From Candidatus Eremiobacterota bacterium (lineage in GTDB: Bacteria; Vulcanimicrobiota; Vulcanimicrobiia; Vulcanimicrobiales; Vulcanimicrobiaceae), in NCBI GenBank assembly GCA_019235885.1, contig JAFAKB010000099.1, forward strand, positions 1-58,314: a stretch of 58,314 nt of DNA, read 5' to 3'. The notes beneath the pieces were generated by a model. That model was given only the letters and a program-made list of their open reading frames with translations. It was not told the origin of the DNA and did not search any database. Both the position numbers and the translations under genes were made by a program. Shown piece after piece: positions 2,189 to 42,069 of this stretch (its first letter is position 1; every line of letters starts with the position of its first letter).

Positions 2189-3937
2189 CTACGCGTGCGC
2201 CCCGCAGCAGGTGCCGTTGCGCCGGCCGCGCGCGCGCAGCGCCGGCGGCGCGGCGGCGATCGGTGCCGCGTAGACGCGTTCGCCGCCGGAGAACGTCGCC
2301 AGCACGCGGGTCGACATGATCTCTTCCGGCGCGATGCGCATCGGATCGCGGTCGAGGACGACGAAGTCGGCGTACTTGCCGGGCTCCAGCGTTCCGGCGG
2401 CGCCGTCGAGGAAGCACGCGCGCGCGGCCCACGACGTCATCGACTTGAACGCTTCGTCGCGCGTCATGCGCTGGCGCGGATACCAGCCGCCGGGCGGCTG
2501 ATTCGCCTCGTTCTGCCGCGCGATCGCGGCGTGGAACGTGCGCAGCGAGTTGACCGCCTCGACCGGCGCGTCGGTGCCGTTCGCGATCGGCACGCCGGAG
2601 TCGAGCAGCGAGCGCCACGCATACGCGCCGAGCACGCGCTGCGGGCCGAGCCGCGCCTGCGCCCACGGCATGTCGCTGACCTGGTGCGTCGTCTGCATCG
2701 AGGCCGTCACGCCGAGCCGCGCGAAGCGCGGAATGTCGTCCGGCGCGAGCACTTGCGCGTGCTCGATGCGCCAGCGGTGATCGTGTACCGCGCGCGAGCG
2801 GCGCAGCGCGGCTTCGTACGCGTCGAGGACGACGCGGTTGCCGCGGTCGCCGATCGCGTGCGTGCAGACTTGGAAGCCCGCCGGCAGCGCGCGCTCGCAG
2901 ACGCTCTGGATCTGCGCCTGCGTGAGCCGCAGCAATCCGGTGTTGCCGGGATCGTCGCTGTACGGCGCGAGCAGCGCCGCGCCGCGCGAGCCGAGCGCGC
3001 CGTCGACGTACAACTTGATCGCGCGAACCGAAAGCCGGCCGCCGTGTGCGAGCGTCTGCGGACCGCGCTGCAGCCAGCGCGCGACCAGCTCGTCGTCGCT
3101 GCCGGCGAGCATCGCGTGGTTGCGCAGCGTGTAGCGCCCCTCGCGCAGCAGCTCCTCGTACGCGTCGAGCCCGTTCTGGTCGACGCCGGGATCGCCGACC
3201 GCGGTCAGTCCCCAGCGGTGGCATTCTTTCAGCGCTGCCTCGCTCGCGCGCACCAATTGCGCGTGCGAGGGCGGTGGGATCGCGCGCCCAATCAGCCCCA
3301 TCGCGTTATCGACGAAGACGCCGGTCGGCGCACCGCTCGCGTCGCGCAGGATCCGCCCGCCGCTCGGCTCCGCCGTGCTCGCGGTGACGCCGGCGAGCGC
3401 CATCGCCTTCGCGTTCGCCAGCAGCGCGTGCCCGTCGACGCGGTGCAGCACGACCGGACGATCCGGAATCGCGGCACTCAGCGCGGCATGATTCGGAAAC
3501 TGCTTGTCGGGCCAGAGGTTCTGGTCCCAGCCGTCGCCGACGATCCACGGATCGCGCGAGCCGTTCGCGAACGCGACCGTGCGCCGCACGACTTCTTCGT
3601 ACGACGCGACGTGCGCGAGGTCGACCTCGTGCAGCGCGAGCCCGACCGCGAGAAAGTGCAAGTGCGCGTCGATCAGCCCGGGCCACACGACGGCGTTGCC
3701 GAGATCGAGCGACTGCGTCCCCGGCCCGCGCAGCGCACGCATGTCCCCACGTGAGCCCACCAGCGCGATTCGCCCGTCGCGCACCGCGAACGCCTGCGCG
3801 AACGGCCAGCTCGGATCGCCGGTGCGGATCGTCGCCGCGCTGACGATCAGATCGGCCCGCCGCCCCGGCGCCGCGGACGCGGCGATCGGCGTACCGGCTA
3901 CCGCGGCCAACCCGGCAAGAAGCGTGGAGCGACGCAT
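2189..3937 (-). CDS. Secreted amidohydrolase family protein (YtcJ-like)
   Basis: This 582-residue metal-dependent hydrolase has a probable signal peptide ([20 protein letters not shown]). It shows the amidohydrolase metal motif GLIDAHLHF (about residues 87-95), a later [17 protein letters not shown], and the C-terminal [12 protein letters not shown] aspartate motif. This series is characteristic of the amidohydrolase-3/YtcJ group, whose members mostly have uncharacterised amide or lactone substrates. The ATG has no strong ribosome-binding site but is the start that produces the signal peptide. It lies upstream of the molybdenum hydroxylase operon on the same strand, 101 bases away, with no clear functional tie. 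Confidence 0.88.
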
Positions 3938-4026
3938 GCGGGCACATTCTCTCGCCGAGCCGGCATTCCCAGCAACCGGCCGTGCGCGCGATACGGCGTC
4001 GCGCGGCGGAGGCGTTCAGCGCGCGT

Positions 4027-4974
4027 CTATGCGCGCGAGGTGACGACGTCGACCATGGCGTCGACGACGTCGGGATCGAAGTGGTCGCCCCGGCCTTCGA
4101 CGAGCCGCTCGAGCGCTTCGGAAGGCGCGAGCGGCGCGCGGTACGGCCGGCGGCCGATCATCGCGTTGAACGCGTCGGCGACCGCGACGACGCGCGCGAC
4201 GCCGGGGATCGCTTCGCTGCGCAGCCCGTCGGGATAGCCGCTGCCGTCGAAACGCTCGTGGTGGCTGCGCACGCCCGGCACCAGGTTCGCCACGAGCGGA
4301 ATGCGCGCGACGATCGCCGCGCCCTCGGCCGCGTGGCGGCGCATGACCGACATCTCTTCCTCGTCGAGCCGGCGCGGTGCGCCAAGGATCTCCGGCGGCG
4401 TCGTCACCTTGCCGATGTCGTGGATCAAGCCGGCGCGCGTCACGCGCACGATCGCGGACTTCTCCATCCCGAGCCGCTTGCCGAGCCGCGCGCACCACGA
4501 CGAGACCGCGCGCGAGTGCTCGGCGGTCAGCACGTCGCTCTGGTGCAGCTCGGTCAGCAGCCGGTCCAGCACGACGTCGACCTCGTCGACCGCTTCGTGA
4601 CGCGCCGGCGCTTTGACCAGCCGCGGGCGCGAGACGATCGGCTGGACCTCGGCGCGCAGCCGCGCGGCGACGCTGCGGTGCGTGCGCGCGATGACGTCCA
4701 GCGCAGCCGAGATCGCCTCGTCGGCGGGGACGATCCCGGCGTAGCGCTCGCAAACGCGGTCGACCCAGGCGCACAGCAGCTTCGGATCGCCGCTCGCCAG
4801 CGCGGCCGCGCAGCGCTCGACGAAGCGCAGCGCGACGATCTTCACCGCGATCGTCCGGTCGGCGGGCGCGAGCTGCGCGACCGCGGCGCGCGCGATCGCG
4901 AGGTTGCGGATGCGCAGCTCGGCGGCGGCTCCGTCGCCGTCGTCGTGCGGCCGAACGGCGTGCAGCTCGATCAC
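4027..4974 (-). CDS. HD-GYP domain phosphodiesterase-like protein
   Basis: This 315-residue protein has a helical N-terminal region (about 1-140) of unknown role and a C-terminal HD-GYP domain. Visible residues are HSRAV (153-157), HDIGK (185-189) and the full HHERFDGSGYPDG signature (238-250). HD-GYP domains typically hydrolyse cyclic di-GMP or related dinucleotides. The GTG start is chosen because it overlaps the stop of the upstream STAND ATPase gene as GTGA; an upstream in-frame methionine would overlap that gene by more than 160 bases. The coupling suggests that the ATPase and the nucleotide hydrolase act together. No receiver or membrane domain is visible. Confidence 0.88.
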   Translation of the reverse strand: MIELHAVRPHDDGDGAAAELRIRNLAIARAAVAQLAPADRTIAVKIVALRFVERCAAALASGDPKLLCAWVDRVCERYAGIVPADEAISAALDVIARTHRSVAARLRAEVQPIVSRPRLVKAPARHEAVDEVDVVLDRLLTELHQSDVLTAEHSRAVSSWCARLGKRLGMEKSAIVRVTRAGLIHDIGKVTTPPEILGAPRRLDEEEMSVMRRHAAEGAAIVARIPLVANLVPGVRSHHERFDGSGYPDGLRSEAIPGVARVVAVADAFNAMIGRRPYRAPLAPSEALERLVEGRGDHFDPDVVDAMVDVVTSRA

Positions 4975-26569: not shown

Positions 26570-27865
26570 CTACGAGCGCACTTCCGCGCGCGCCGCTGCG
26601 AGCGGCGGGCGGCGCTCGTGCCAATCCGTCCGTGACTGAAAAACTTGGCCCAGCGCAAACGCGCTCGCCGGATCGCCGGCGACCGCTATCATCTGCATCC
26701 CGAGCGGCATCCGCGCGGGCCCGAATCCGATCGGCACGGCGGCGACGGGCAGCGCGAACGCGCTCGCCGGCGTCACCAGCGGAATCGTCTCGGCGCGGAA
26801 GCTCTGGTGCGCCGGTGCGAGCGGTGCTTCGGCGCCGGCCGACGGCGCGAGCGCGACGTCGTAGCCGGCGGTTGCCGCCGACCAGGTCGCGCGCGCGTTC
26901 GCGATGACGCGGCGCGCCTCGGTCTCGGCGGCTTCGCCGACGCCGAGCGCGTACGCGACCCGCTCGCGAACGTCGTCGCCGTACTGCTCGCGGTGCGGCG
27001 CGAAGAGCGGTTCGTGCACGCGCGCCGCGCCGCGCTGCTGCACGGTCGCCGTGGCACCGACCAGCTCGTCGTCCCACCACGTCACGTCGTCGACGACGAC
27101 GCCCGCGGCGCGCAGCACCGCCGCCGCCGCGTCGCGCGCGGCGGTGACGGTCCGATCGACGCGATCCCAGACGCCGCCGCGCAGCACGCACGCGCGCCGC
27201 ACGGACACCGGCGCGAGCGGCGCGCCGGCGAGAATTTCGTACACCCGCTGGACCGTCGGGAGGTCGCGCGCGAACGGGCCGGCGGTGTCGAGCCCGATCG
27301 TGAGCGGGAAGATGCCGTCGATCGGTAGCGCGCCGGTCGCGGGCCGCAGCCCGCAGACGCCGTTGAGCGCGGAGGGAATACGAATCGAGCCGAGCGTGTC
27401 CGTTCCGAGGGCGGCGTCGCACAGCTCGGCGGCGACCGCCGCACCGGAACCTCCGCTCGACCCGCCGACGACCCGTGCGGTGTCCCACGGATTCTTCGTG
27501 CGTCCGAAGTGCGGGTTCTCGGTGGTGATTCCCCAAGCGAACTCGTGCGTGTTCGTCTTTCCGAGGATCAGCGCGCCGGCGGCGCGCAGCGCGGCGACCA
27601 CCGGCGCGTCGTGTTGCGGATCGCGCCGGAAGAACGACGAGCCGGCGCGCGTCGGCAGCCCGGCGACGTCGATGATGTCCTTGACGGCGACCGTCACGCC
27701 GTGCAGCGGGCCGCGCGCGGTCGGCGGAATCGCGTCGAGCCGCGCGGCTTCGCGCAGCACCGCCGCCTCGTCGAGCGCGACGTAGCAGTTCAGCGCCGGA
27801 TCGACCTCGCGGATGCGCGCGAGGAGCTCGTCCGCGCGCCTGGTGACCGTGACGTCGTTCGGCAT
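26570..27865 (-). CDS. Amidase signature family protein
   Basis: This 431-residue hydrolase shows the Ser-cisSer-Lys triad regions: VTVAVKDIIDVAG (catalytic Lys), GGSSGGSGAAVAAE (cis-Ser) and LGTDTLGSIRIPSALNG (nucleophile Ser). The family includes GatA, AtzF and many amide hydrolases; the substrate is not evident. GatB and GatC are not nearby, so a GatCAB role is unlikely. The ATG at 27865 begins the conserved helix just before the Lys motif. It is divergent from the NfeD gene, with 43 bases between. A nitrile hydratase lies 10 kb away, so an amide link between them is possible but weak. Confidence 0.9.
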   Translation of the reverse strand: MPNDVTVTRRADELLARIREVDPALNCYVALDEAAVLREAARLDAIPPTARGPLHGVTVAVKDIIDVAGLPTRAGSSFFRRDPQHDAPVVAALRAAGALILGKTNTHEFAWGITTENPHFGRTKNPWDTARVVGGSSGGSGAAVAAELCDAALGTDTLGSIRIPSALNGVCGLRPATGALPIDGIFPLTIGLDTAGPFARDLPTVQRVYEILAGAPLAPVSVRRACVLRGGVWDRVDRTVTAARDAAAAVLRAAGVVVDDVTWWDDELVGATATVQQRGAARVHEPLFAPHREQYGDDVRERVAYALGVGEAAETEARRVIANARATWSAATAGYDVALAPSAGAEAPLAPAHQSFRAETIPLVTPASAFALPVAAVPIGFGPARMPLGMQMIAVAGDPASAFALGQVFQSRTDWHERRPPLAAARAEVRS

Positions 27866-36523: not shown

Positions 36524-36727
36524 ATGTGGACGTTTCTGCGCAAGCTCTTCGGCGGCGGCGCACGCCCCAAGGCGGGCGGCATCGACTCGGTCTTCGCGGC
36601 GCTCGACGAAGGCGAGGCGAAGCGCCCGCCGCCGACGCTCGTCTGCCGGCAATGCGGTTTGAAATACGCCAACACCGGGACGTACTTACAGGGAAGTCGC
36701 TGCCCCGACTGCTACCCGCAGGGCTGA
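36524..36727 (+). CDS. Small zinc-ribbon-like protein
   Basis: This 67-residue protein has a basic N-terminus (MWTFLRKLFGGG) and a C-terminal CRQCGLKY ... GSRCPDCYP pair of CxxC knuckles, a likely structural zinc site. It looks like a small hydrolase-independent zinc ribbon of unknown partner. It starts 82 bases from the divergent VOC gene. Its end is 8 bases before the convergent nitrile hydratase alpha gene. Confidence 0.75.
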   Translation: MWTFLRKLFGGGARPKAGGIDSVFAALDEGEAKRPPPTLVCRQCGLKYANTGTYLQGSRCPDCYPQG

Positions 36728-36734
36728 GCCCTCG

Positions 36735-37325
36735 TCAGACGAGCGCCGTTCCGATCATTCCGTTGCGGGTGACGAGCGCGCGTAGCTCCTCCTCGCTCGC
36801 GTTCTCGGTTCCGGCGGGGCGTTGCGGCAGCACCATGTAGCGTACTTCGGCGGTGCTGTCCCAGACGGTGATCTCCGTGTCGTCGGAAAGCGTCGTGCCG
36901 AACTCCGCGAGGACGCTGCGCGGGTCCCGGACCGCGCGCGAGCGGTACGCGTTGCTCTTGTACCAGCTCGGCGAGGGACCGAGGAGCGCCAGCGGATAGC
37001 ACGAGCAGAGCGTGCACACGATCAGGTTGTGGCGGCCAGGCTCGTTCGCGACGACGCGCAGCTTCACCGGCGCCCAGCGCGCCAAGTCGATGCCCAGCTC
37101 GGCCGCCGCCGCGTTGCCGTCGGCGAGCAGGCGCGCGCGGAACGCGCCGTCGACCCACGCGCGCGCGACGAGCAGCGCGCCGTTCGCCGGCTGCGCGCTC
37201 GCAAGAAACGCTTCGACGGCGGCGTCGAGCTCGCGCTCGGTGAAGACGTTCGCCGCTTCGAACGCGGCGACGAGCGCTTTCACGCGGTTCGACGCGCCGG
37301 CGGAGCTTTCGTGCACGTGGCTCAT
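36735..37325 (-). CDS. Nitrile hydratase alpha subunit (cobalt type)
   Basis: This 196-residue subunit holds the metal-binding claw VCTLCSCYP (C104, C107, S108, C109). Threonine after the first cysteine is the mark of cobalt-type nitrile hydratases and thiocyanate hydrolases, against serine in iron types. Nitrile hydratase converts nitriles to amides. The ATG overlaps the stop of the split beta C-half as ATGA. It is the third gene of a three-subunit set, like thiocyanate hydrolase or toyocamycin nitrile hydratase. Confidence 0.9.
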   Translation of the reverse strand: MSHVHESSAGASNRVKALVAAFEAANVFTERELDAAVEAFLASAQPANGALLVARAWVDGAFRARLLADGNAAAAELGIDLARWAPVKLRVVANEPGRHNLIVCTLCSCYPLALLGPSPSWYKSNAYRSRAVRDPRSVLAEFGTTLSDDTEITVWDSTAEVRYMVLPQRPAGTENASEEELRALVTRNGMIGTALV

Positions 37326-37594
37326 TCCGAAGCCTCCAGGTACGACTCGAACAGGTCGGCGCAGATGCTGCCGCGCGGGTCGGCGTCGCCGCCGAACACG
37401 TCCTCCGCGGCGAACCGCACGGTATAAGCGGTCTCTTTCGCGGAGCGGACGCCGGCGGCACGCCGGTCGGAGAACGGCAGCGTGCCGAGGACGGTGTCGA
37501 TGCGGCCGCTGCGCCCGACCAGATAGCGCGGCAGCCGCGTGTGTCCGGCGGGATTTCTCAGCCGCGTGCGGACGCGGTCACCGACGGAGAACAT
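37322..37594 (-). CDS. Nitrile hydratase beta subunit, C-terminal half (separate gene)
   Basis: This 90-residue protein matches the C-terminal SH3-like half of the nitrile hydratase beta subunit: MFSVGDRVRTRLRNPAGHTR and LPRYLVGRSGRIDTVLG, then AYTVRFAAEDVFGGDADP. It starts inside the end of the N-half gene (17-base overlap) and ends in ATGA overlap with the alpha gene. Beta subunits are usually one chain of about 200 residues; here they are two chains. Confidence 0.85.
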   Translation of the reverse strand: MFSVGDRVRTRLRNPAGHTRLPRYLVGRSGRIDTVLGTLPFSDRRAAGVRSAKETAYTVRFAAEDVFGGDADPRGSICADLFESYLEASE

Positions 37595-37853
37595 CGAGCA
37601 GCTTTCGCTCTTCGACCAGCGATTCGAGCGCGTGCAGCCAGCGCTCGTAGTACGACGCGCCAAGATACTCCTCGGGCGGCATTCGCTCGAGCGCGTCGCG
37701 AAACTCGTCCAGGTTGTACGCGCCGGCGCGCAGCAGAAAACGGTTGATCGCGAAGACGCGCGCCTCCCACTCGTGGTGAAACGGCGGCTCGCCGGGCTCA
37801 ATCGCCAGCGGCCCGAAACCGTGCATCCCGCCGATGTCGTGGATCCGGCTCAT
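37578..37853 (-). CDS. Nitrile hydratase beta subunit, N-terminal half (separate gene)
   Basis: This 91-residue protein begins MSRIHDIGGMHGFGPL, the exact opening of beta subunits, and has FHHEWEARVFAINRFLL and EEYLGASYYERWLHALE, all from the N-terminal helical half. It ends with ERKLLDVLRR where normal beta chains continue into the SH3-like half. The next gene provides that half. The order, N-half, C-half, alpha, matches known split-beta enzymes. Confidence 0.85.
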   Translation of the reverse strand: MSRIHDIGGMHGFGPLAIEPGEPPFHHEWEARVFAINRFLLRAGAYNLDEFRDALERMPPEEYLGASYYERWLHALESLVEERKLLDVLRR

Positions 37854-38834: not shown

Positions 38835-38876
38835 GCAATGCGAAACTCATACCGCTGCCACGGCGTCCGTACGGGC

Positions 38877-40490
38877 ATGACGCGACGTACACTGTGGGTG
38901 CTTGCCTCCGTGCTGGGGCTGGGATGCGTTCCGCTCGCCGTGGGCGCCGAGCAATTGCCGGGGCCGGTCGTCGGACGTCCCGCTCCACCGTTCACGCTCA
39001 CGACGGTCGACGGCAAGACGGTGCGGCTCGCGGACTACCGCGGAAAGACACTGGTGCTCAACGTGTGGGGCTCGTGGTGCCCGCCGTGCCGGCTCGAGAC
39101 GCCGGACCTCATCGCCGAAGCGAAGGGCGACGCGTCACGCGGCGTCGCGTTCCTCGGCGTCGACACGACCGAGAGCGCTGCGGTCGTGCGCGCCTTCGCG
39201 GCGGCGAAAGCGATCCCGTATCCTCAAGTGGCGACGACCTCGGAGAGCGCGTTCGCAAAGACGTACGAGATCCGGAATGTCCCGGCGACGTTCGTGATCG
39301 GGCCGGATGGCGTACTGCGCGCGCGCCACGTCGACAACGTCTTGCCGCGCGCCCAATTGCACGCGTACATCGTCGCCGCGGAGAACGGCCAAACGGCTCC
39401 GCTCACGACCGCGTTTCAGGCGCAGCTCGACGCGCTGCTCGATCCGGCGCAGTACCCCTTCGCCGGTGACGCCGCGACGACGCGCGCCAACGTCGCCAAA
39501 GCGGCCGCCGCGATCGCCAAGGCCGACGATCTGCAGGACGAGGCGATGGACGATCCCGCGCGCGATCACGACTTGCTCAAGACGCAGCAAGAGGAAGAGA
39601 GCCTGCGCGCCGCCGCGATCGCTGCGTTCGCGCCGCTCGCCGCAAGTGACGCCGACCGCGCGCTGCTCGCGCGCTTGCGCGGCGACGAAGCGGCCGCGCT
39701 TGGGAAATGGACCGACGCGGACGCGGCGTATGCGGAGGCGCTGCGCTACGCGCCGGGCGACGTCGCGGCGCTCGGCGGAGAAGCCTACGCCGCCTCGAAC
39801 CTCGGCGACGAGCACCGTGTCGCGGCGCTCGACGCGCAAATAGCGGAGAAATCACCCTCGTATGCCGCGTACGTCTCGCTGGGCCGCGCGCTGGCGAAAA
39901 TCGGCGAGGTCAAGGCCGGCGAAGACGCGTTCGAGAAAGCACGCGCGCTCGCAGCGAACAACCCGGCGCAAACGGCGTGGACCAACCTCTACTACGGCCG
40001 CATGGAGACGACTGCGGGCAACCGCGAGAAAGCGCGCGCCGCGTTCGCGCGCGCGAGCCTGGCCGCACAGCAGATTCCGCAGACCGATCCGCGCGCCGCA
40101 TGGTACGTCGAACAAGCGCAGGAAGGCACCGTCGCGCTCGACGTCGCGCGCGGTTCGAAGCCGGCGCTCTCGCTCGCGCCGTGGACGGGCCCCGATCTGC
40201 CCGGCTCGATCGCCAGCACGATCAAGTACCGCCTCGTCGTCACCGGCGCGCCCGGCGCGCGGCTCGCGCTTTCCGCCACCGGACTGCCGAAGCGCTGGAT
40301 CGGCTCGTTCTGCACCGACCGTGTCTGTGCGCCGTTCCGCACCTCGGTGACGGTGCCGGCCGGGGGCGTGAAGGTGGTCGAGTTCCAGGTCGTTCCGACG
40401 ACCGCGCACAATGGTCCGGCGAACGTCCGGATCGACGCCCGCAGCGGCGGGCGCCCGGTCGCGACGGTCGGCACCCTCGTTCGCGTTTAG
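38877..40490 (+). CDS. Exported TlpA-like thioredoxin with TPR and C-terminal domain (copy 1)
   Basis: This 537-residue protein has a signal peptide (residues 1-24), a TlpA/ResA thioredoxin domain with WCPPC (C68, C71) at about 30-170, a TPR-like helical middle (about 190-410), and a C-terminal beta domain holding SFCTDRVCAPFR. An upstream ATG at 38838 is possible but would hide the signal peptide. It is followed after 10 bases by a paralogue with the same layout. It probably handles disulfides in the periplasm. Confidence 0.85.
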   Translation: MTRRTLWVLASVLGLGCVPLAVGAEQLPGPVVGRPAPPFTLTTVDGKTVRLADYRGKTLVLNVWGSWCPPCRLETPDLIAEAKGDASRGVAFLGVDTTESAAVVRAFAAAKAIPYPQVATTSESAFAKTYEIRNVPATFVIGPDGVLRARHVDNVLPRAQLHAYIVAAENGQTAPLTTAFQAQLDALLDPAQYPFAGDAATTRANVAKAAAAIAKADDLQDEAMDDPARDHDLLKTQQEEESLRAAAIAAFAPLAASDADRALLARLRGDEAAALGKWTDADAAYAEALRYAPGDVAALGGEAYAASNLGDEHRVAALDAQIAEKSPSYAAYVSLGRALAKIGEVKAGEDAFEKARALAANNPAQTAWTNLYYGRMETTAGNREKARAAFARASLAAQQIPQTDPRAAWYVEQAQEGTVALDVARGSKPALSLAPWTGPDLPGSIASTIKYRLVVTGAPGARLALSATGLPKRWIGSFCTDRVCAPFRTSVTVPAGGVKVVEFQVVPTTAHNGPANVRIDARSGGRPVATVGTLVRV

Positions 40491-40500
40491 TCAGGAGATC

Positions 40501-42069
40501 ATGCTGCACGCCATCATCGCCGCGACGGCGCTCACGCTCACCGGTCCGCAAGTCGGCTCGCCCGCGCCGGACTTCCACTTGACGACCGTCGCCGGCAAGC
40601 GCGTCTCGCTCGCCGACTTCCGCGGCAAGACGCTGGTTCTCAACGACTGGGCGACGTGGTGTCCGCCGTGCCGCGAGGAGACTCCCGACCTGATCGCGTC
40701 GGCGAAGAAGCTCGCCACCAAGGGCGACGTCGTCTTCCTCGGCGTCGACTCGACGGAGGCCGCACCGATCGTGCGCGCGTTCCTCGCCGCGAAGCCGATG
40801 CCGTACACGACCGCAATCGACGGTGACAAGGCGTTTTCGAAAGCCTACGACGTGCGCGCGTTTCCGACCACGTTCGTGATCTCGCCCGACGGTGTGCTGC
40901 GCGCGCGCTACGTCGGAAACATCACGCCGGCGATCCTGGCCGGGTTCGTCGGCGACGCGCGCGCCGGGCGCGACGGCGTTCTCGCGACCGAGGCGCAGAA
41001 GAAAGCCGACGCGCTGCTCGATCCGGCGAAGTTCGCCTTCACCGGCGACGTCGACGCCGTGCGAACCGCGGCCAAGAACGCGCTCAAGGCGATCGACGAT
41101 GCGGAGAACGTCGACGGCGAGACCGACTACTTGCGCATCCAAGCCGAAGAGAACGTGCTGCGCGACGCCGCCGCGAAGGCCCTCGAGCCGCTCGCGCAGA
41201 GCGCCGCCGACAAGGCGTTGCTGGCGCGGCTGCAAGGCGACGCCGCGTACGCGCGCGAGGAGTGGCCGCAGGCGATCGCGGCGTACGAGCGCGGGCTGGC
41301 GGTCGCGCCCGAGGACCCCGATCTGCTCTCGGGATACGGCACCGCGTTGCGCAGCGACGGTGACTACGCGCGCGCGGCGGAAGCGTTCGCGAAGCTGGCC
41401 AACGCCGATCCGAGCGTCGAGAACCTCGTCGAATACGGGAACACCGCCGCCGGCGCCAAGCGCTTCAACGACGCGACGGTCGCGTTCTCGCGCGCGGTCG
41501 CGACGGCGCGCGCCAAGGTCGACGCGAAGCCGTCCGACGCGAAGGCGATCCGCAAGCTGGCTTGGGCGTATCTGTACCAAGGCCGCATGTACGCGAAGGC
41601 AGGCGAGAACGCGAAGGCGCGCGCGGCGTTCGCGCAGACGAGCGCGTGGAGCGCGAAGCTGCCGAAGAAGGACGCGCGCCACGACATGTATCTCGAGGAG
41701 GCGCAGGAAGCGACGGTCGCGCTCGACGCCGCGCACCCCGCCGGCAAGACCGCGATCTCGCTCGCGCCGTGGACCGGCCCCGACCTGCCGGGCTCGGTAA
41801 GCAGCACCTACAAGTACCGCCTGGTCGTCGCCGGGACGCCCGGCAAGAGCGTCGCGCTCGAGGCGAGCGGTCTGCCGAAGCGCTGGGTGGCCTCGTTCTG
41901 CAGCGACCGCCAGTGCGCGCCGTTCCGGACGACCGTCGCGCTCCCGTCCTCCGGGGTGAAGGTGATCGAGTTCCAGGTCATCCCGCAGTCGGCGTCGGCG
42001 AAGCCGCCGACGATCCGGGTCCAGGGCGGCGGTGCGAGCGCCGCAGTGCGGGTCGGCGCCAGCGCATAG
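40501..42069 (+). CDS. Exported TlpA-like thioredoxin with TPR and C-terminal domain (copy 2)
   Basis: This 522-residue paralogue of the preceding gene shows WCPPC (C54, C57), a TPR-like middle (AAYERGLAVAPEDPDLLSGY), LAPWTGPDLPGS and SFCSDRQCAPFR near the end, all aligned with copy 1. The start has CAGGAG at good spacing, and the N-terminus is a short hydrophobic leader. The pair is a tandem duplication that has diverged; catalytic cysteines are intact in both. Confidence 0.87.
   Translation: MLHAIIAATALTLTGPQVGSPAPDFHLTTVAGKRVSLADFRGKTLVLNDWATWCPPCREETPDLIASAKKLATKGDVVFLGVDSTEAAPIVRAFLAAKPMPYTTAIDGDKAFSKAYDVRAFPTTFVISPDGVLRARYVGNITPAILAGFVGDARAGRDGVLATEAQKKADALLDPAKFAFTGDVDAVRTAAKNALKAIDDAENVDGETDYLRIQAEENVLRDAAAKALEPLAQSAADKALLARLQGDAAYAREEWPQAIAAYERGLAVAPEDPDLLSGYGTALRSDGDYARAAEAFAKLANADPSVENLVEYGNTAAGAKRFNDATVAFSRAVATARAKVDAKPSDAKAIRKLAWAYLYQGRMYAKAGENAKARAAFAQTSAWSAKLPKKDARHDMYLEEAQEATVALDAAHPAGKTAISLAPWTGPDLPGSVSSTYKYRLVVAGTPGKSVALEASGLPKRWVASFCSDRQCAPFRTTVALPSSGVKVIEFQVIPQSASAKPPTIRVQGGGASAAVRVGASA

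Follow-up and report, generated by a model that had tools for sequence, protein, structure and literature searches.

A predicted cobalt nitrile hydratase with a divided beta subunit and no separate activator gene detected in an uncultured Candidatus Eremiobacterota bacterium

A contig of 58,314 nucleotides from a Candidatus Eremiobacterota bacterium, analysed here over its whole length (the window), contains three short adjoining genes that resemble a cobalt nitrile hydratase (NHase) whose beta subunit is in two pieces, raising the questions as to whether the division is genuine, what the enzyme acts upon, and how it acquires its cobalt. The genes are separate open reading frames (ORFs) in the order beta-N, beta-C, alpha on the minus strand, a strand left unstated in a first-pass annotation (Table 1), and their designation there as a three-gene cobalt NHase is borne out by the matches to PF21006, PF02211 and PF02979 and by the CTLCSC motif, of which CTLC is invariant in all 31 rows of the clade containing the window. 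The 91- and 90-residue halves and 17-base overlap described there are likewise confirmed. Against the 219-residue P. putida beta subunit (3qxe_B), beta-N aligns to residues 4-86 (E 1.7e-24) and beta-C to residues 131-218 (E 1.1e-13); the two proteins are thus the two beta domains, ending at natural borders as had been proposed, and only the interdomain linker (residues about 87-130) is missing. The alpha subunit matches P. putida 3qxe_A (E 1.5e-55) and scores 242.7 bits against the NCBI nitrile hydratase equivalog TIGR01323, slightly below the cut-off of 249.85; the alpha of Streptomyces albicerus (L029), which shares the window's clade, reaches 265.6 bits. A residue table shows equivalents of P. 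putida beta Arg52, Glu56 and Tyr68 in beta-N and of His147, Arg149 and Tyr215 in beta-C, and we take Arg52, Tyr68, Arg149 and Tyr215 to be NHase active-site residues. From these similarities the operon very probably encodes a cobalt nitrile hydratase, with nitrile hydration as the predicted activity.

Table 1. Features of the divided NHase operon, in window coordinates.
Feature	Coordinates	Strand	Description
beta-N half	37578..37853	minus	91 aa; PF21006 105.4 bits, E 2.4e-30
beta-C half	37322..37594	minus	90 aa from ATG at 37594; PF02211 88.6 bits, E 3.8e-25
alpha subunit, cobalt type	36735..37325	minus	196 aa; PF02979 248.4 bits, E 4.1e-74
metal-binding motif CTLCSC	36999..37016	minus	alpha residues 104-109; read in translation and DNA
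beta-N/beta-C gene overlap	37578..37594	minus	exactly 17 bases; read from ORFs and DNA
beta-C/alpha stop/start overlap ATGA	37322..37325	minus	4 bases; read from ORFs and DNA
GGAGG, probable ribosome-binding site of alpha gene	37333..37337	minus	7 bases upstream of ATG; inference from DNA

The operon was compared with loci from its own family and from evenly drawn samples of 396 Actinomycetota and 398 Pseudomonadota genomes; a beta-N-like protein occurs in 49 and 58 of these, respectively, and all such places were examined. Loci L052, L135 and L136 were left out, having no NHase alpha by the models used, and duplicate, incomplete or odd entries were removed (L001, L013, L025, L047, L053-L079, L128, L130, L134, L160, L198, L202, L206, L207, L209-L219, and three Elioraea rows without beta-C); the place in G104 is counted as L032. 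The 162 loci kept comprise 80 split loci, 68 unsplit loci that have an activator and 13 that lack one, and L188, which was set aside. The split loci form two groups, 31 in clade A and 49 in clade B, with L040 assigned to clade A by hand and L100 moved there, both following a full tree. A further tree (91 rows, 347 columns) includes thiocyanate hydrolase together with split NHases, as the first-pass annotation had suggested, and places the window with the split NHases and thiocyanate hydrolase apart from both split clades. The window lies inside clade A (SH-aLRT 98), which contains Vulcanimicrobiota and Actinomycetota and adjoins the ordinary activator-bearing cobalt NHases as their sister clade. 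Clade B (20 of its 49 rows sampled; support 87) contains Rhizobiales, other Actinomycetota and, in the full tree, seven loci of the window's family. As a test of a single origin of the split, uniting A and B in one clade is not rejected (p-AU 0.207), and the split and unsplit states require three changes on the tree with thiocyanate hydrolase counted. The clade B loci (L003, L004, L005, L007, L008, L020, L026 and 42 further loci) have their beta-N and beta-C cores further apart in sequence, and Trp replaces Tyr at the position of P. putida beta 215 in 49 of 49.

Within the window's family, 26 of 99 genomes (including the window genome, which is 4.5 Mb with a completeness of 95.46) contain an NHase alpha, and 25 of these have the split form; 24 of the 25 loci are whole or nearly whole, and in G086 the alpha and the two beta halves are at different contig ends. 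The closest named relative, a Candidatus Eremiobacterota MAG (L027), has an 85% identical alpha. The one unsplit beta, in G060 (L002, L206), belongs to an alpha-first locus with an activator that is nested among alpha-first loci mostly of the Pseudomonadota sample, and its position suggests that it was probably acquired.

Two other explanations of the divided beta need to be weighed. It could reflect a frameshift, whether from a sequencing error, from gene decay or from programmed frameshifting that yields a single beta chain, a reading consistent with the overlap of the two halves in different frames, and the sample does include one apparently frame-broken case: L188 (G780, contig 21) is an unsplit-type NHase in order and spacing, yet its beta halves are in different ORFs, apparently through a broken frame or an assembly error. 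Among the 31 clade A loci, however, the overlap is 4, 8, 11 or 17 bases in 30 (17, as in the window, in seven) with a short gap in one, as measured from the start codon nearest the stop, a choice that favours short overlaps, and beta-C is in the +1 frame relative to beta-N in 17 loci and the +2 frame in 14; this variety argues against both an error and a conserved slippery site. Moreover, the linker coding is gone, dN is lower than dS for each of the three genes against each of four relatives (with L014, 0.157 vs 0.581 for beta-N, 0.163 vs 0.441 for beta-C, and 0.112 vs 0.517 for alpha), codon position 3 is the most divergent in all three genes, and S. canus produces both proteins from separate genes (PMC7329996). 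A frameshift thus seems exceedingly improbable, and the earlier view that the split is not an obvious error holds, since the same gene order recurs in relatives from three phyla with differing overlaps and frame offsets.

The enzyme could alternatively be a thiocyanate hydrolase, as that of Thiobacillus thioparus (2dd4) has an identical domain split of its two-piece beta and an alpha-type cobalt subunit homologous to that of the window (2dd4_C, E 2.2e-35). Against this, the window alpha scores 165.9 bits with TIGR03887, where the curated cut-off is 291.45, and beta-N and beta-C match thiocyanate hydrolase only marginally (E 0.053 and 0.0025), the best NHase matches in the structure comparison set being far stronger (E 1.7e-24 and 2.1e-14). 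A clade uniting window-type enzymes with 2dd4 is rejected (p-AU 4.15e-52), and the window residues equivalent to P. putida beta 56, 147 and 215 are Glu, His and Tyr, as in ordinary cobalt NHases, whereas 2dd4 has Asn, Tyr and Tyr and eight thiocyanate hydrolase-like loci have Asn, Tyr and Trp. The split itself is not diagnostic because the sampled kin of thiocyanate hydrolase have an unsplit beta. These are eight Actinomycetota loci (L093, L095, L097, L107, L109, L111, L123 and L124) with the two small subunits fused in one ORF, and 2dd4 nests among them; all five examined exceed the TIGR03887 cut-off (375-391 bits), and CTLCSC is replaced by CALCSC in five and by CSLCSC in one. A thiocyanate hydrolase is therefore a highly improbable assignment for the window enzyme, and of the two substrates first put forward, thiocyanate appears unlikely from these comparisons and a nitrile is favoured.

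The closest characterised relative of this predicted NHase, overlooked in the first-pass annotation, is the three-subunit enzyme of Streptomyces canus CGMCC 13662, encoded by anhD, anhE and anhA and forming a D2E2A2 complex. In PMC7329996 its genome is described as lacking an activator gene, AnhD is both the beta-N half and a self-subunit-swapping chaperone, the AnhD-alpha complex activates the apo-enzyme, and acetamiprid, thiacloprid and benzonitrile are hydrated but not indole-3-acetonitrile. The window beta-N and beta-C are homologues of AnhD and AnhE respectively, and the two systems share the gene order (N-half, C-half, alpha), the cobalt motif and the lack of an activator gene, and their subunits are of similar size. 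They also share a clade by way of S. albicerus L029, which stands in for S. canus, itself outside the tree; the ends of the L029 proteins (beta-N MARMNDIGG...EPGELDD, beta-C MTDRF...DER) agree with those encoded by the anhD and anhE primers given in PMC7329996 (translated by eye). The beta-N/beta-C overlap is 17 bases in the window and 8 in L029. AnhD-Glu56 and AnhE-His21 are named as important in PMC13243292. The window beta-N carries Arg52 and Glu56 with the same numbering, and, matched through L029, the histidine of the window's GHTR corresponds to AnhE-His21. The differences lie in the host phylum, the window belonging to Vulcanimicrobiota/Eremiobacterota, and in the substrate, a nitrile being only predicted for the window. 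Ordinary cobalt NHases (P. putida 3qxe, P14K) have the same active-site residues and cobalt motif and form the sister clade, but differ from the window in their unsplit, linker-containing beta and separate activator gene. The toyocamycin NHase of Streptomyces rimosus (ToyJ and partners) is also a three-subunit NHase, dedicated to a nucleoside-antibiotic substrate, whereas the window operon has no conserved neighbour gene; the S. rimosus sequence is absent from the tree. PMC13243292 describes the S. rimosus enzyme as branching with that of S. canus. In a literature search with subscription papers mostly outside its scope we found no report joining nitrile hydratase with Eremiobacter and no survey of split NHases. 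The window operon is thus a further example of a known three-subunit, activator-free design, now in an uncultured phylum, and we put at roughly 85% the probability that the three genes make a cobalt NHase of the S. canus type.

The genomic surroundings offer no guide to the substrate, as 23 window-clade loci have no conserved neighbour within 6.5 kb of the operon. The ORFs that recur widely there are shadows of the operon's own genes, antisense or shifted; three loci have an ABC transporter ATPase, at no common position. The window genome encodes five amidase-family proteins, so the amide could be used further; one of these genes (26675-27829, minus; 258.9 bits) is on the operon's strand about 9 kb further on, and we found no evidence linking the amidase-family genes to the operon. 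Convergent with alpha is a 67-aa ORF (36524-36727, plus) of zinc-ribbon appearance (CxxC...CxxC) with no family over the cut-off, and at 38838-40487 and 40411-42066 (plus) are adjacent redoxin-type proteins whose ORF ends overlap, the second with TPR repeats.

The functionally important consequence of the split design is the absence of a separate activator gene, a point missing from the first-pass annotation. The window genome (G000, 95.46% complete) has one PF21006 place and no second beta-N-like protein, and its only TIGR03889 match is the beta-N place itself, under the cut-off; an activator could be hidden in the missing part of the genome. The TIGR03889 cut-off is exceeded only in G060 among the 28 genomes searched. 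All 25 family genomes with the split operon have exactly one beta-N-like place, as do 13 of 14 named genomes with window-clade loci, and the remaining one, S. albicerus (G101), has three: one in the split operon, one in an unsplit beta and one in the activator of the latter. Weak second matches in G450 (24.7 bits, with two stops) and G517 (20.7 bits, under the cut-off) are not counted, and those resembling an activator in the split loci L005, L127 and L197 sit inside the alpha ORF. None of the 80 split loci has an adjacent activator, compared with 68 of the 71 unsplit cobalt NHase loci; the Fisher p-value is tiny, but we do not lean on it because the tree offers only one independent pair, and the association of splitting with the absence of an activator rests on about one independent evolutionary contrast. 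The 13 unsplit loci without an activator are the eight thiocyanate hydrolase-like loci, two with the iron-type motif CSLCSC (L186 and L187) and three others. The unsplit L149 has its activator on another contig (L160), a weak candidate (14 bits) adjoins L098, and none was seen near L088. Outside NHase proper, thiocyanate hydrolase breaks the pattern, being split yet having an activator gene (PMC7193024). On the origin of the activators, an 82-column tree built from 114 beta-N domains and activators allows them to group with the beta-N of clade A, of clade B or of the unsplit loci (p-AU 0.72, 0.66 and 0.63). In L134 (G273, 3846-4477) several alpha-like fragments without CxxCSC, possibly NHase-like RiPP leader genes, lie beside a weak beta-N-like match.

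For the S. canus-type NHase predicted here, beta-N, beta-C and alpha would be co-translated through the gene overlaps, and the two halves would occupy the sites on alpha of the two domains of an ordinary beta with no covalent linker joining them; the assembly would probably be (beta-N, beta-C, alpha)2. Alpha would bind Co(III) through CTLCSC with oxidised cysteines, which we take to be held by beta Arg52 and Arg149, and the enzyme would hydrate a nitrile to the amide. Homology to S. canus suggests that free beta-N may first bind alpha as a cobalt-loading, self-subunit-swapping chaperone, as well as forming the structural half of beta; because a separate activator is absent, we lean towards this chaperone role in the window system. 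It is also possible, although we think it rather unlikely, that the enzyme is an NHase whose alpha takes up cobalt directly, beta-N playing no part as a chaperone. Results reported in PMC7329996 bear on both: on its own, S. canus alpha contained 0.57-0.58 mol cobalt, the S. canus apo-enzyme regained 36% activity with cobalt and DTT, cobalt entering alpha without any chaperone under DTT, and the alpha of the S. rimosus toyocamycin NHase was active alone, whereas holo-AnhD-alpha activated the apo-enzyme to 54% as compared with 12% for holo-AnhE-alpha. Given the unaided cobalt entry and the 0.57 mol in lone alpha, a chaperone may help rather than be needed. A chaperone unrelated to beta-N would have escaped the beta-N and activator searches; the only match to a CobW-family protein in the window genome is weak (28 bits). 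We also considered the His-rich tail of alpha as a built-in metal loader and rejected it, since unsplit loci with an activator have as many histidines, with at least four in the 25 residues before the alpha core in 41 of 68 such loci, as against 27 of 49 for one split clade and 5 of 31 for the other. In Elioraea, a 343-codon ORF (L050 4491-5519, L051 3413-4441, and L138 3291-4319, the same gene as L050; all plus) encodes beta-N fused through a His-rich linker to an alpha with CTLCSC, beta-C being absent from the locus, and looks like a single-chain version of the AnhD-alpha chaperone complex; the same genomes also contain a normal split operon (L139, L205).

We tentatively suggest, as a possibility somewhat short of even odds, that splitting of beta is a stable and widespread alternative to an activator gene, with the free N-half acting as both subunit and cobalt-loading chaperone in whole clades of cobalt NHases (Vulcanimicrobiota, Actinomycetota, and Rhizobiales and their kin), and with the separate activator as a specialised descendant or ancestor of the N-half. 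The design also suggests cassettes of about 1.1 kb, without an activator, for amide production or nitrile pesticide degradation. Comparison of split and unsplit loci allows the 2020 proposal of a chaperone function for the N-half to be tested as a general rule. The three-subunit arrangement without an activator, characterised in a Streptomyces species, is now placed in an uncultured phylum and recurs there in 25 of 99 genomes of the family.
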